Positions 30,451 through 38,432 of a stretch of DNA of 47,542 nt are shown in pieces. This DNA comes from Spirochaetaceae bacterium (GTDB taxonomy: Bacteria; Spirochaetota; Spirochaetia; Treponematales; Rectinemataceae). How positions within the stretch are numbered: position 1 is the stretch's first letter; every line of letters starts with the position of its first letter. Below the pieces are notes generated by a model. That model ran no database searches and had not been told where the DNA came from. It worked only from the letters and a program-made list of their open reading frames with translations. Where the stretch lies: contig JAOABY010000012.1 in assembly GCA_026418115.1 (NCBI GenBank), forward strand, positions 1-47,542, given 5' to 3'. A program made the translations under genes and the position numbers.

Positions 30451-30519
30451 TCTGTAATCGGCGAAACCTGGTTTTTCGCTATGCCTCGAGATACCAGTTC
30501 ATGTTGGAGGAAAAGCCTC

Positions 30520-33371
30520 ATGGCCAGGAAAAAGTATGTATATTCTTTTGGGGCCGGCATCGCTGAAGGCGACGGCACCATGAAGGAACTGCTGGGCGGC
30601 AAAGGTGCCGGACTGCATGAAATGACCAAAATCGGCCTGCCTGTACCCGCTGGTTTTACCATTACCACTGAGGTCTGCGAACTCTACTACAAGAATGGAA
30701 AGAAATGGCCGGAAGGACTCGAGAAAGAAGTACAGAAACATCTCAAGCTTCTCGAGAAAACGACAGGGAAAGTGCTCGGCGACCCACAGGATCCATTGCT
30801 TGTATCGGTTCGCTCTGGAGCACCGGTCTCAATGCCTGGCATGATGGAGACCATCCTCAATCTCGGCCTTACTGATGCTTCTGTCGAAGGTCTGGCTGCC
30901 AAGACCGGCAATCGTCGTTTTGCACTTGATGCCTACCGCCGCTTCATCATGATGTATGGCTCAACCGCAATGGGAATCGACAGGGAAGAATTCGACAAGG
31001 CGTTCGACTCCATTAAGGAAAAGAAAACGCGTGCCCGTCTCGGAATTCCTTCCGACAGAAAGGTCAACGATACTGAAGTCGACGAGAATGAACTTTCCGA
31101 ACTCATTGTAGAATTCAAGAAAATCTACCGTGAGCACATCAAGTCAGAATTCCCCCAGGATCCATGGGAACAGCTCAAGGGTGCGATTGATGCTGTCTTC
31201 AATTCCTGGATGGCAGATAAAGCCGTCACCTATCGCAAAGTAGAAAAACTGGTTGGTGTCAAGGGAACTGCTGTCAACGTAGTCCAGATGGTGTTCGGTA
31301 ACAAGGGAGAGACCTCCGGTACCGGCGTGTGCTTCACCCGCGATCCCAATACCGGTGAAAATGTGTTCTATGGTGATTATCTCGTCAATGCGCAGGGCGA
31401 GGATGTCGTGGCCGGCATTCGCACTCCCATCAAGCTGGCTGAGCTCGAGAAGCGCGATCCCAATGTCTACAAGCAGCTTGTAGCCATCCGCAAGAAGCTG
31501 GAAAAGCACTATCGAGACATGCAGGATCTCGAATTCACCGTAGAAGAAGGCAAGCTCTACATGCTGCAGTGCCGCACCGGCAAGCGCAGCCCCATTGCTG
31601 CATTCAAGATTGCGGTGGATATGGTGAAAGAAAAGCTCATCACCAGGGAAGAAGCGATCATGCGCATCAAGGCATCGGATATTGAAGGCATTTTCTATCC
31701 GATGATTGACAAGTCCAATCCTGCTGAGCTCAAGAAGGCTTTCCTGGTGCAGGGTATTGATGCAGTACCGGGTGCTGCTTCCGGCAAGGTGGTGTTCAAT
31801 GCCAAGACAGCCGAAGAGTGGGCTGACCTCGGTGAAAAAGTCATTCTGGTGCGCAAGGAAACCAGCCCCGAAGACGTTGGTGGCATGCACGCTGCACAGG
31901 GTATTCTGACTGCTACCGGTGGCAAGACGAGCCATGCTGCAGTTGTTGCCCGAGGGTGGGGAAAGTGCTGCATAGTCGGATGTGAAAAGCTCAACATCGA
32001 CTATGAAAAGGGCCTGTTCTCAGTCGGCGATACGGTGGTAAAGGAAGGCGATTATATTACTCTCGATGGCTCAAGCGGCAATGTCTACGTTGGCCAGCTC
32101 AAGCTCATCAAACCCGAGCCTCCTGCTGCCTACAAGACCCTCATGTCATGGGTTGACAAGATTCGCGAGCTGAAGGTTCGCACCAACGCAGACACTCCCT
32201 ATGATGCCGAAAAGGCTCGCGAGCTTGGTGCCGAAGGTATCGGCCTCTGCCGCACCGAGCACATGTTTTTTGATTCCGAGGAGCGCATTCTCGCCATCCG
32301 CGAAATGATCATCGCCGATGATCTTGAGTCACGCAAGAAAGCGCTCGACAAACTCCTCCCCTTCCAGACAAGGGATTTTGAGGGCATTTTCAAGGCCATG
32401 GATGGGCTTCCCGTCACCATTCGCCTCATCGATCCGCCGCTTCACGAGTTTGTGCCACATGATGAGGAAGGCCAGCGTGCGCTCGCCAAGGCGTCAGGAG
32501 TACCCTTCGAGAAGGTAGTGCAGCGCGTCAATCAGCTGCATGAAGCTACCCCATGCTCGGTCACCGCGGCTGCCGTCTGACCATTACCTATCCCGAGATC
32601 CTTGACATGCAGGTGACTGCCATCATCACTGCTGCATGCAATATGACCAAACAGGGAGTCAAGGTTCTTCCTGAAATCATGATTCCTCTTGTCATCGATA
32701 CCAAGGAACTCAAAATACTTGAGACTCGTGCCCGCCAGGTAGCCGATGCCATCATTGAAAAGTCGGGTGTCAAAGTGAGCTACATGATCGGAACCATGAT
32801 TGAGGTTCCCCGCGCTGCTCTTCTGGCAGACAGGATTGCCGAGGTTGCTGAATTCTTCTCCTTCGGCACCAATGACCTTACCCAGATGACGCTTGGACTC
32901 TCCCGCGATGATGCCGGCAAATTCCTGCCCGATTATGTCGATGAGAAAAAGACCGGCATTTTCAAGGCGGATCCGTTCCAGAGCCTTGATCAGGATGGTG
33001 TTGGCATGCTGGTGCGCATGGGAATCGAGAAAGGCCGCAGCACCAGGGCCAGACTTAAGGTTGGTATCTGCGGTGAGCATGGTGGTGATCCGGCATCTGT
33101 CAAATTCTGCCATCGCGTCGGCATGAATTATGTCTCCTCTTCTCCATTCCGCGTGCCCATTTCGAGGCTCGCTGCTGCTCAGGCTGTTATAGAAGACAAG
33201 ATGGCAGCAAGCAAGGCCAAGGCTGCCCCTGCAGCAAAACGCGGCAGACCTGCAAAGGCTGCAGCAGAGAAAAAGACAACCCGCGCAGCCACTACGAGAA
33301 AGAGCGCAGTTGCTACACCTGTGAAGCGCTCTCCCGGGAGACCCAAGGGATCAACCAAAAAGGCCAAATAA
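30520..33371 (+). CDS. ppdK: Pyruvate, phosphate dikinase, split by a one-base frameshift
   Basis: PPDK interconverts pyruvate + ATP + Pi and PEP + AMP + PPi. The first frame runs from 30520 (GGAGG before the ATG) to a TGA at 32578-32580, and the second from about 32553 to 33371. The ATP-grasp domain starts [20 protein letters not shown]. The swivelling histidine domain has [13 protein letters not shown] with His472. The PEP-binding barrel is cut at [16 protein letters not shown], where one base is missing after ACCCC. Joined, the protein would be about 950 residues. Two further oddities: [10 protein letters not shown] has Ser at the usual catalytic Cys (joined residue 874), and a basic tail of 57 residues follows the normal end. 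It may be a sequencing error or real decay. Confidence 0.9.
33198..33368 (+). other. AT-hook-like basic C-terminal extension of ppdK
   Basis: After the normal PPDK end ([11 protein letters not shown]) the frame continues for 57 residues rich in Lys, Ala, Pro, Arg and Thr, like a histone H1 tail. It contains AKRGRPAK (33234-33257) and SPGRPKGS (33330-33353). Both have the GRP core flanked by basic residues that defines AT-hooks, which bind the minor groove of A+T-rich DNA. It ends TKKAK at the stop. Codon use looks like the rest of the gene. Confidence 0.8.
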
Positions 33372-34774: not shown

Positions 34775-35731
34775 ATGCCATCAATGGACAGAGCAATTCC
34801 CCCATCACCGCCCTCCGATCTTCTCAAGGCCTACGAGTGCCTGAAGAACGCTGATTTTGCATCGGCAGAACGATTCCTGGAAGCAGCGCTGCATGAGAAC
34901 TACGAGCATGAGGAAGTGCTGTTTGCGCTTAAATCTCTGCATTTCTGGCGTGAACCTCTGCTCAACCTCGACAGCATGAAAAATCTTGTTGATCGAGGTG
35001 ATTTTCTCATGGAGTCATGGAAGCGGTACTGTGCTTTCCTTTTACACGTGGGAGGCAACTTTGAGACCGCGCGCTATGCATTCAGAAGAGCCGTATTCGG
35101 TCTGGCGCTGGATCTCTATCTGGCACTTCCCGATGCCACAAAGGATCAGATGGGGCCCGATCTGGACTTTCGTCTGGGACGTGCAAGAAAAGCTTCAGGC
35201 GACCTTGAGTTGGCGCAGCAGCATCTTGAAAGAGCTGCGAAAAGCCGAAAACAGGATGCTGCAATCATGGCAGAACTGGCTGATACTCTTGCGCTGGCTG
35301 GCGAAATGCGCATGGCCAAGGCCCTTTTCAGGGAAGCCTTTTTTCTCGACCCCAGGGCGGTTGATCTTGAATATCTGGAATCGGATTTGATTCGCAAGAT
35401 CATTGAAAATGTAAGGAAATTGGGATATTCTGGTGAAGTTGTTGCAGAGTGGATACCGGTGTACGGAGAAATCCTGCATGTGCTTGATGTCAAACGTCTG
35501 CTCACACAGGGTGAATTCACCAACCTGCAGTCATCGGTAGCCAGACTGGAACAGGAATTATTGAACTCTCCCAGGCGCCGCGAGGTGCTGGTGCCTCGCC
35601 TGCTGACGCGATACTTCTGGATAGTATCCCAGCTCCAGGCAACGGAAGGCGATGGGGCAAAACTGGGAAAGGTTCTGATCAAGATAAAGACACTTGATCC
35701 GGAAATCCATGCCCGATACACGGAAACTTGA
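34775..35731 (+). CDS. Helical-repeat (TPR-like) protein upstream of greA
   Basis: The 318-residue protein is probably cytoplasmic, with no signal peptide or membrane helix. Repeated helical pairs of TPR type are visible: LLKAYECLKNADFASAERFL, LDFRLGRARKASGDLELAQQ and MAELADTLALAGEMRMAKAL. I recognise no catalytic motif. AGGAAAGG precedes the ATG. The greA fusion gene starts 10 nt downstream, so the two form one operon and may act together. The function is unknown. Confidence 0.8.
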   Translation: MPSMDRAIPPSPPSDLLKAYECLKNADFASAERFLEAALHENYEHEEVLFALKSLHFWREPLLNLDSMKNLVDRGDFLMESWKRYCAFLLHVGGNFETARYAFRRAVFGLALDLYLALPDATKDQMGPDLDFRLGRARKASGDLELAQQHLERAAKSRKQDAAIMAELADTLALAGEMRMAKALFREAFFLDPRAVDLEYLESDLIRKIIENVRKLGYSGEVVAEWIPVYGEILHVLDVKRLLTQGEFTNLQSSVARLEQELLNSPRRREVLVPRLLTRYFWIVSQLQATEGDGAKLGKVLIKIKTLDPEIHARYTET

Positions 35732-35741
35732 GGAGACGATA

Positions 35742-38432
35742 ATGGCCGAATCTCCAATGACTGAGCAGCTTCAGCTCATGCTGAATGAAGAAAAGTGGAC
35801 AAGAACCCTCATTGCATCCTACACAAAGGCAGAACTCGAGAGCCTCGACCGCTTTATCGAAGAGGCCGAGATGCAGAATCTCTCGGAGGATTTCCGAAAA
35901 ATCTGCGTTGATCATCTTGAACATTCGAGAAACAGCGTCAAGGCGCTCTACATCCTTGGCATGCTCAGCATGCGACAGCAGCCGGCAGATGAATCCTATC
36001 TGCTGCAACTCATGGATCAGTTCCAGGAAGCGAAGAAATTCACCATTGTCGAGCATATCTGCAACCGGATTCTTGACCATGGAGAAAACCGTATCGCGCT
36101 TGCTCGCCTGGCAGAGTGCTATACCGAAGAAGGCAAGCTCGATCAGCGTTTTGAGATCTGGCTCAGGCTTGTACGCATTGATCCTGAAGAGGCGGATCTG
36201 GCAAAGCTTATTGCCGAAAAATATGAAGAAGACGGCGAGATCGAGAGTGCCATTGAATACTACAAGAAGGCTCTTCTGCGTTTCATCAACAAGGGGCTTT
36301 TCTCGAATGTCAAGGAAGTTTGGAACCGCCTCATCGAACTGGCTCCCGATGAGATCGATTTTTTCTTCCATGCACAAAAGAAAATTGCCAAGCAGATCTC
36401 TCCTGAAAAGGCATCCCTGCTGCTCATGAGCCTCTACGAGTTCTACAAGAAAGGCAGCAAGTGGACAACGGCGCTCGATATTCTCAAGACCATAATCGAG
36501 TACGACGAGCGACTGCCACAGCTCAGAAAAGAGCTTCTTGATTGCTATACCGCTCTCTATGGCGGACACTCCATGTTCGACGAATGTGTACGACTCTCCA
36601 ATATCAATCAGTCCTACCGTTCGCTCCACGAGGCGATGGAAGACTTTGAGAAGCGCATTGCGTTCGACAAGGGAAATTTCGTATTTCACAGGGCATGGAG
36701 CATCGGGCGGATCGCCAACATTTCCAATGACGAAATTATAATTGATTTCGTGAAGTCCAGAGGACATCGAATGTCACTCAAGATGGCATTCGACAGTCTC
36801 CAGACTCTCTCCAGGGAACATATCTGGGTACTCAAGGCAATCTGGCCAAAAGAAAAACTCAGGGACAAAGTCAAGAACGATCCTGCCTGGGCACTCAAAA
36901 CCATCATCAAGAGTTTTGACAACAAGGCAGACATGAAGCGCATCAAGGCGGAGCTGGTGCCTGCCGTACTGTCTGCATCCGAGTGGAATACCTGGAGTGC
37001 AAAGGCAAAGGAAGTACTCAAGACCGATCCGATGTTTGGCAATGCCGAGGATGATATCGGTACGTTCATAGTGAGAGACCGGCCTCTGTCATTTGAAGAA
37101 AAGATCTACGCCCAGTTCAAGGCTGAAAAGAATTTCTTCTCTCGCGTGCACTTCTTCAGAGAATATATCGAGATCAAGGGACTCGACGACCTGGACAACG
37201 ATTACTTCAACGACATGCTCACCTATTTCTCATCATTCCTCAAACAGGGTCAGGCAGTCACCGAATTTGTTATCGGATCATACCTGCTCTTCAAGGATCT
37301 GGCTTCCCAGTACCCCAAGTTCCAGGAATTCCTCACCACGAGCTTCTCTGAACTTTTCACCCAGATCGAGAATCCTGTTGAAGTGTTCCTGGGCCTCAAG
37401 GATACTGAACTGAAGAATCGCTTCATTAGAGAGATCAAGCTGCTGCCTCAGTGGACTACCATCTATCTCATGCTCCTCCCCCACGCCCGCCTGAAGAGCA
37501 TGATCGAAGATCTCAAGTCGGCAGGTGAAGTTGACAAGATCAAGCAGCTTGCCATCTTCATTGTCGAGAACTATAAGGACATGAGGGAGGCTTTCATCTG
37601 GATTGCAAAGGATCTCCGCGAGGAAGAGTGGTTCAGGGAGCTTGGCATTCTTCAGGAAAAGATCATCCTCACGCTCCTGCACATACTCGATATATCTTTC
37701 AAGGAAATCGAGAACCATAAGGATACGACTGAAAACCGCAAGATCAATCGTCTTGTGCAGAATATTCTGTTCAAGGAAAAGTGGCTGGAAACATTCCTCG
37801 AGAGCTGTGAGCCGAATGTTGCCGAGCGGGTGTACTCCATGCTTGCCGACATAAAGGATCTGGATCCTGCAATCAGAATTGATATCCGCAAGAAACTGTC
37901 AGAGCGGCTGCCGTCACTCAAGTTCTATGATGTTGATGAAAAGCTCACCGTCTCCCGAGGACTCATGGTGACTGCCACGAAGTATCAGGAGAAGGTGCAA
38001 CTGCTCAACCACATCATGGAAGTTGAAGTTCCTGCGAACCAGCGTGAGATTGATGAAGCCCGCCAGCTTGGCGACCTCAGAGAGAACGCAGAATACAAGG
38101 CGGCGCGCGAGCGTCAGGATGAACTCAATGCCAAAGTTGGCAAGCTCAAGAACGAGCTGGAGAGGGCGCGCATTGTCGATCCCGAAAGCATCACTACCGG
38201 CAAGATCGGATTTGGCACTATTGCGAAGCTTCTGAATCTAGAAACGCAGGAAACGGAAACCTATACCATTTTTGGGCCCTGGGAATCTGATCCTGATAAC
38301 AGAATCATCAGCTATCTCTCCCCATTTGGAAAACATCTGATGAATCACAAGGTGGGAGATATCATAAGCTTTACCATCAATGAACGTTCTTTCAGGTTCA
38401 GGGTTGAATCAATAGAAAAGGCTCCATTCTGA
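35742..38432 (+). CDS. greA: Large fusion protein: helical-repeat N-terminus plus GreA
   Basis: The 896-residue protein ends in a complete GreA factor (about 741-896), which rescues backtracked RNA polymerase by stimulating transcript cleavage. The GreA coiled-coil tip reads GDLRENAEYKAARE; Asp778 and Glu781 match the acidic pair needed for cleavage. The FKBP-like C-terminal domain follows. The first 740 residues are charged helical repeats with TPR-like units (CNRILDHGENRIALARLAEC, YEEDGEIESAIEYYKKALLR) and no catalytic motif I recognise. Borrelia and Treponema have similar fusions as I recall. I start it at the ATG at 35742, after GAGGAG; a frame from 35694 overlaps the upstream gene. Confidence 0.93.
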   Translation: MAESPMTEQLQLMLNEEKWTRTLIASYTKAELESLDRFIEEAEMQNLSEDFRKICVDHLEHSRNSVKALYILGMLSMRQQPADESYLLQLMDQFQEAKKFTIVEHICNRILDHGENRIALARLAECYTEEGKLDQRFEIWLRLVRIDPEEADLAKLIAEKYEEDGEIESAIEYYKKALLRFINKGLFSNVKEVWNRLIELAPDEIDFFFHAQKKIAKQISPEKASLLLMSLYEFYKKGSKWTTALDILKTIIEYDERLPQLRKELLDCYTALYGGHSMFDECVRLSNINQSYRSLHEAMEDFEKRIAFDKGNFVFHRAWSIGRIANISNDEIIIDFVKSRGHRMSLKMAFDSLQTLSREHIWVLKAIWPKEKLRDKVKNDPAWALKTIIKSFDNKADMKRIKAELVPAVLSASEWNTWSAKAKEVLKTDPMFGNAEDDIGTFIVRDRPLSFEEKIYAQFKAEKNFFSRVHFFREYIEIKGLDDLDNDYFNDMLTYFSSFLKQGQAVTEFVIGSYLLFKDLASQYPKFQEFLTTSFSELFTQIENPVEVFLGLKDTELKNRFIREIKLLPQWTTIYLMLLPHARLKSMIEDLKSAGEVDKIKQLAIFIVENYKDMREAFIWIAKDLREEEWFRELGILQEKIILTLLHILDISFKEIENHKDTTENRKINRLVQNILFKEKWLETFLESCEPNVAERVYSMLADIKDLDPAIRIDIRKKLSERLPSLKFYDVDEKLTVSRGLMVTATKYQEKVQLLNHIMEVEVPANQREIDEARQLGDLRENAEYKAARERQDELNAKVGKLKNELERARIVDPESITTGKIGFGTIAKLLNLETQETETYTIFGPWESDPDNRIISYLSPFGKHLMNHKVGDIISFTINERSFRFRVESIEKAPF

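Follow-up and report, generated by a model that had tools for sequence, protein, structure and literature searches.

A GreA factor fused to a scaffold with a PcrA/UvrD-type Tudor barrel in spirochaetes and chlamydiae: a candidate polymerase-docked cleavage factor

Introduction

Free GreA is a protein of about 158 amino acids, without a scaffold or Tudor domain. In a Spirochaetaceae bacterium (assembly GCA_026418115.1) GreA instead forms the tail of a protein of 896 amino acids, which raises the question of what the 740 residues in front of it are and what they do for a transcript cleavage factor. The gene lies on the forward strand at 35742..38432 of the window, meaning here the whole stretch of 47,542 nucleotides that was analysed (contig JAOABY010000012.1), and its open reading frame runs from an ATG at 35742 to a stop at 38432. 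The product is made up, in order, of a helical scaffold, a Tudor barrel, a tryptophan-rich conserved segment, a further helical region and GreA. An initial annotation of this DNA proposed that the fusion couples the rescue of backtracked polymerase to another machine. Docking on RNA polymerase itself is a rival to that proposal and, being simpler, is to be weighed first.

Family and occurrence of the fusion

The GreA fusion is not new, because it is already catalogued in NCBIfam; what is new is the naming of its N-terminal content. The window protein is a member, end to end, of NF011309 (PRK14720, 'transcription elongation factor GreA', about 906 aa), which it matches over residues 7-894 with 954.4 bits against a curated cut-off of 714. 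The family name is silent on the N-terminal 740 residues and on the Tudor. A second family, PRK06330 (NF004969, 'transcript cleavage factor/unknown domain fusion protein'), is chlamydial, with members of about 718 aa that are shorter by about 180 residues at the N-terminus, and the window protein scores below its cut-off. PRK06330 matches the N-terminal part alone (E 1.3e-17 for the window protein, down to 1.1e-34 for relatives), so the two families have more than GreA in common.

Such fusions, annotated in spirochaetes according to the earlier statement, are not spirochaetal only. In a cross-phylum sample that was picked by a 16S-like DNA pattern, favours Chlamydiota and is uneven over the bacteria, all 16 genomes that clearly belong to Chlamydiota carry the fusion, as do some of Planctomycetota and Kiritimatiellae (one genome in the sample, labelled Verrucomicrobiota, scores like a chlamydia). 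Conservation is given below for an alignment of 54 full-length fusions from Spirochaetota, Chlamydiota, Planctomycetota and Kiritimatiellae. No functional account of GreA fusions or of the scaffold was found in the literature searched, which largely excludes subscription journals, in agreement with the earlier remark that the N-terminal part has no assigned function.

The GreA tail

Residues 741-894 (37962..38423, forward strand) form a complete GreA, with a coiled coil followed by the C-terminal domain. Both Pfam domains score over their cut-offs (PF03449, 63.8 against 24.5 bits; PF01272, 73.1 against 26.9 bits), and the fold in the AlphaFold2 model matches E. coli GreA (1grj) with a target-normalised TM-score of 0.82. 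The two-domain architecture and the acidic pair are the same as in E. coli GreA and in free bacterial GreA/GreB. The LGDLRENAEY motif at the tip of the coiled coil sets this pair as Asp778 and Glu781 (38073..38084, forward strand), each of which is invariant in the alignment (54/54). Judged by its sequence the tail is a complete, cleavage-competent GreA, just as the initial annotation had described it, down to the positions of the two residues.

Two observations had been named that would speak against the fusion still acting in transcription, namely a separate GreA elsewhere in the genome and loss of the acidic pair in relatives. Across the genome (2.17 Mb, 95.9% complete) the only GreA C-terminal domain is that of the fusion, and none of the 54 full-length fusions has lost the pair. 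Within the class, 69 genomes were sampled and 68 of them likewise gave a single GreA match; the matches that were inspected or tabulated with their frames are fusions of around 900 aa. Both outcomes mostly favour a fusion that still acts in transcription.

Architecture of the scaffold

The AlphaFold2 model of the fusion has a mean pLDDT of 87.7 and a pTM of 0.57, and because of the latter its domain arrangement is to be taken as tentative. Residues 1-306 (35742..36659, forward strand) appear as a TPR-like helical superhelix. Residues 1-300 are all helical in the model and are matched by several TPR models, every one below its Pfam cut-off; designed TPR chains match residues ~120-178, and natural TPR chains match the helical N-terminus too. 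The description of all 740 residues as TPR-like is fair for about the first 300, on single matches below cut-off, and does not hold for the rest. The further claim that this region lacks a recognised motif was mistaken, as a Tudor barrel is found at about 308-357.

Behind the barrel lies a segment (residues 370-450, 36849..37091, forward strand) whose conservation nearly equals that of the Tudor, with K402 in 53/54, W415 in 54/54 and W418 in 52/54 fusions across four phyla. It is predicted to form helices followed by two strands. This predicted secondary structure suggested a winged helix, an identity to which Pfam and the PDB give no support; neither source gives a convincing match to any known family. 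A second helical region follows in the model (residues 451-730, 37092..37931, forward strand), then a flexible linker (residues 731-739, 37932..37958, forward strand), the only stretch with a pLDDT below 50.

Such a linker in the model is consistent with a scaffold that restrains GreA, hiding the tip of the coiled coil or limiting access to the secondary channel until a signal or partner releases it, and a sole GreA might need restraining. However, the linker has no conserved switch residue, and restraint of this kind seems to us very improbable.

A Tudor barrel of the PcrA/UvrD type

The barrel (residues 308-357, 36663..36812, forward strand) was identified by profile, profile-profile and structure comparison, and no other part of the N-terminal region is as well conserved in the 54 proteins. 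In the AlphaFold2 model (pLDDT 86.6 for the barrel) five strands, at 313-316, 320-328, 331-336, 342-345 and 354-356, form an SH3-like barrel.

Among 53 barrels, the Pfam profile PcrA_UvrD_tudor matches 30 at E <=0.1, CarD_TRCF_RID 23 and DUF3553 20. The CarD_TRCF_RID matches are weak, the best single one among the barrels having an E of 1.5e-4, and the window barrel alone scores 15.4 bits against the PcrA/UvrD Tudor, below the cut-off of 23.9. When a profile of the barrels was compared with all PDB sequences, UvrD and PcrA ranked first (best E 3.8e-4). In hhalign, the barrels match UvrD Tudors from the analysed genomes and E. coli at 96.3% (E 1.9e-9), and chance resemblance is ruled out by reversed, column-shuffled and other-slice controls, all of which stay below 1%. 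Against the RNA polymerase-interaction domain (RID) of spirochaete Mfd the whole set reaches ~88-90%, with controls for both comparisons below 4%, and the chlamydial and other non-spirochaete barrels alone reach 24%.

Structural comparison points the same way. The top Foldseek match of the barrel is 5dma (E 7e-3), and VIA-align gives a Z of 6.7 to 7egt (rmsd 1.2 over 47 residues) and of 6.2 to 5dma (rmsd 1.4 over 48 residues); each of these scores is modest by itself, a Z below 8 being weak alone, and agrees with the sequence result. The top matches include 7egs, in which the UvrD C-terminal domain is bound to an RNA polymerase lobe, and 7egt, in which UvrD is bound to UvrB. The agreement of independent methods, in sequence and in the model, is strong evidence that the barrel is a Tudor of the PcrA/UvrD type.

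The C-terminal Tudor of PcrA/UvrD (5dma, 7egs, 7egt; PF21196) is the closest match, sharing an H-x-x-W/F pattern and a phenylalanine position with the fusions. The RID of Mfd and CarD (PF02559) has the same barrel and comes second. In PcrA and UvrD the Tudor stands at the end of the helicase, whereas in the fusion it lies in the middle of the scaffold. Profile searches with Pfam and NCBIfam detected no SF1 helicase domain in the fusion protein, so the fusion is no UvrD, and its Tudor is a related domain that has a new context.

Contact residues and a possible docking site

RNA polymerase binding is a common property of the Tudor domains in PcrA/UvrD, Mfd and CarD (PMC5397179; PMC8318588; PMC7585439). 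In PcrA, the mutants H681A, W684A, K712A and L714A have been made to test this binding, which is weakened when H681 or W684 is mutated (PMC5397179). In a HMMER alignment to 5dma, PcrA H681 and W684 correspond to the ends of H316-R-A-W319 (36687..36698, forward strand) and PcrA F705 to F336 (36747..36749, forward strand; PMC5397179). These positions are kept across the 54 fusions (H316 in 52, W319 in 53, F336 in all 54), and G322 is near-invariant. K712 and L714 of PcrA align with H343 and M345 of the window protein, and many chlamydial members have K-x-L at these two positions. Since the surface positions are kept across phyla and the fused factor acts only on RNA polymerase, the most straightforward reading is that the Tudor holds GreA on the polymerase, and we infer from the sequences that it is a docking domain for this enzyme.

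On RpoB, the docking site of the PcrA Tudor is a [VIL]DxxTGE[VIL] motif within the SI1 insert (PMC8318588). No exact copy of it occurs in RpoB of the window's genome or of the class members sampled, so any docking site of the fusion on the polymerase must differ from that of PcrA; a few distant lineages have the motif or a near match to it. As a target of the Tudor in the window's genome and class, the PcrA-type motif can thus be set aside. By analogy with Mfd and CarD, the fusion may instead dock on the beta1 lobe, to which these proteins bind.

The only nearby candidate in the RpoB of the window's genome (L253) is a stretch TGEIRQKE at beta ~123, which recurs with small variations in most class members. 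Judged by E. coli RpoB, it lies near the site used by Mfd and CarD. The window's genome (G000) has a single match to a CarD/Mfd RID, in a CarD-sized frame (contig C130, 3245-3421). A match to Mfd is absent there and present in most relatives, perhaps owing to an incomplete assembly. We also considered that spirochaete UvrD might have lost its Tudor, with the fusion as compensation, and do not claim this: the best UvrD match lacks a Tudor in several class members, but three relatives have one (one best match was taken per genome, and paralogues were read in part).

DNA and other proteins are also among the ligands of Tudor folds (PMC7585439), and the UvrD Tudor binds UvrB as well (PMC8318588; structure 7egt). 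As an adaptor, the fusion might use its Tudor and TPR arms to bind a second machine, with GreA as the contact to the polymerase. Nucleotide-excision repair, reached by way of UvrB, is one candidate, and a partner brought in by the TPR protein encoded upstream is another. That 7egt is the best structural match to the barrel favours such an adaptor, but a coarse pattern test found no exact helicase-interaction motif in UvrB of the window's genome, which speaks against UvrB as a target by way of the same motif.

The upstream TPR gene

A TPR-like gene of 318 aa (34775..35731, forward strand) is the first of the two-gene operon and, as had been noted at the outset, ends 10 nt before the fusion begins. 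Its TPR_14 match (25.0 bits against a cut-off of 23.5) is the sole TPR match over cut-off. The gene was considered as a paralogue of the scaffold and this was set aside, the BLASTP match having an E of 0.007 over 80 residues only. Further upstream in the window, a pyruvate phosphate dikinase gene (30481-33371, forward strand) is split over two overlapping frames (30481-32580 and 32553-33371), which suggests a frameshift or an error in the assembly. The protein ends in a Lys/Ala-rich tail that resembles an AT-hook tail and contains two GRP motifs (KRGRPAK and SPGRPKG).

The co-occurrence of TPR gene and scaffold across spirochaetes, proposed earlier as a check, is confirmed, with homologues of the upstream gene in 239 and the scaffold region in 234 of 247 genomes of the phylum (180 of the 182 of high quality for the scaffold). 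The upstream gene stands directly 5' of the fusion in most class members and is not adjacent in several distant families; in f26, f36 and f43 (family labels are those of the genome set used; loci L046, L050, L053, L063, L064 and L065) ~930-1060 bp lie between the two. The TPR protein is probably a partner of the scaffold.

This co-conservation also speaks for an adaptor, and so does the common role of TPR superhelices in protein binding. Against it, 20 genomes from other phyla, the tested genomes with the PRK06330 form among them, yielded no full-length homologue of the upstream gene, and the gene was not detected in the sampled family f12, which belongs to the same class and has the fusion. 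Overall, we regard the adaptor as an unlikely explanation.

Scaffolds without GreA

Stand-alone scaffolds of ~725-745 aa that lack GreA immediately follow the TPR gene in families f15, f21, f24, f32, f37 and f49, and f23 has a similar scaffold in a longer frame, about seven such families in all. Most keep a recognisable barrel; in some, the best-scoring stretch is another part of the protein. A free GreA is found elsewhere in the genome in f21. In genomes G012, G163 and G044 (L300, L303 and L306; the G044 assembly is only 80% complete), which have the scaffold and the upstream TPR gene, no GreA domain was detected. Because the scaffold stands alone and yet follows the TPR gene, the TPR gene with the Tudor scaffold makes up the conserved unit, to which GreA is joined as a detachable tail. 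Since some lineages keep the scaffold without a fused GreA, it must have a use that is independent of the tail.

In a phylogenetic tree the free spirochaete GreAs cluster with the free forms from other phyla and not with the fused ones (support 88-89), which suggests that they are replacements; with this moderate support, the tree does not favour an origin as split-off tails of fusions. Where a lineage has both forms of GreA, fused and free, it is the fused tail that diverges more, with GDVRENVEYNAL in place of GDLRENAEYKAA, and this tail retains the acidic pair. At loci L044, L048, L051, L055 and L061, where a free GreA is also present, the fused tip shifts from GDLRENAEYKAA to [GA]D[VLIM]RENV[ED]YN-like forms. 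The altered tip points to a possible change of function.

The GreA-less forms make a scaffold with a main job other than GreA a serious alternative. The scaffold would then be the core of a complex with the TPR protein that binds RNA polymerase or nucleic acid, and GreA an optional tail, prone to loss or decay after a free GreA is gained, in keeping with the replacement of GreA and the divergence of tails just described. The window's class, however, has no GreA besides the fusion, which is well conserved there, and the Asp and Glu are invariant even in divergent tails. As an account of the fusion at this locus we judge it improbable, about on a par with the adaptor.

A proposed polymerase-docked GreA

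The explanation that we prefer, to which we would give an even chance of being right, is a Gre factor with built-in polymerase docking, in which the sole GreA is tethered to a scaffold that bears a Tudor. Sequence and model together provide its parts: a GreA with its acidic pair, conserved contact residues on the Tudor, a scaffold found in several phyla and linkage to the TPR gene. By analogy with UvrD/PcrA, Mfd and CarD, the Tudor would grip the outside of RNA polymerase, most likely at the beta subunit, and so keep the GreA tail close to the secondary channel. The helical arms would bridge the Tudor to the tail over the flexible linker at 731-739 and, probably with the upstream TPR protein, position both ends or receive other partners. 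On backtracking, the tail would enter the secondary channel and stimulate RNA cleavage.

On a wider reading, which we offer tentatively and hold to be a good deal less probable than tethering, the TPR protein and the Tudor scaffold could form an undescribed RNA-polymerase-associated complex that is phylum-wide in spirochaetes, with an ancient scaffold subunit that also occurs in Chlamydiota and their relatives and works with or without GreA. Such a complex would loosely resemble the elongation complexes of eukaryotes, where a cleavage factor works alongside TPR scaffolds.

For a family long annotated as an 'unknown domain fusion', there is now a named domain with residues to mutate (H316 and W319). 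If the proposal is true, two bacterial groups with major pathogens use a polymerase-anchored GreA and not a free diffusing one, and views of backtracking rescue, transcription fidelity and competition with UvrD and Mfd in both groups would change.
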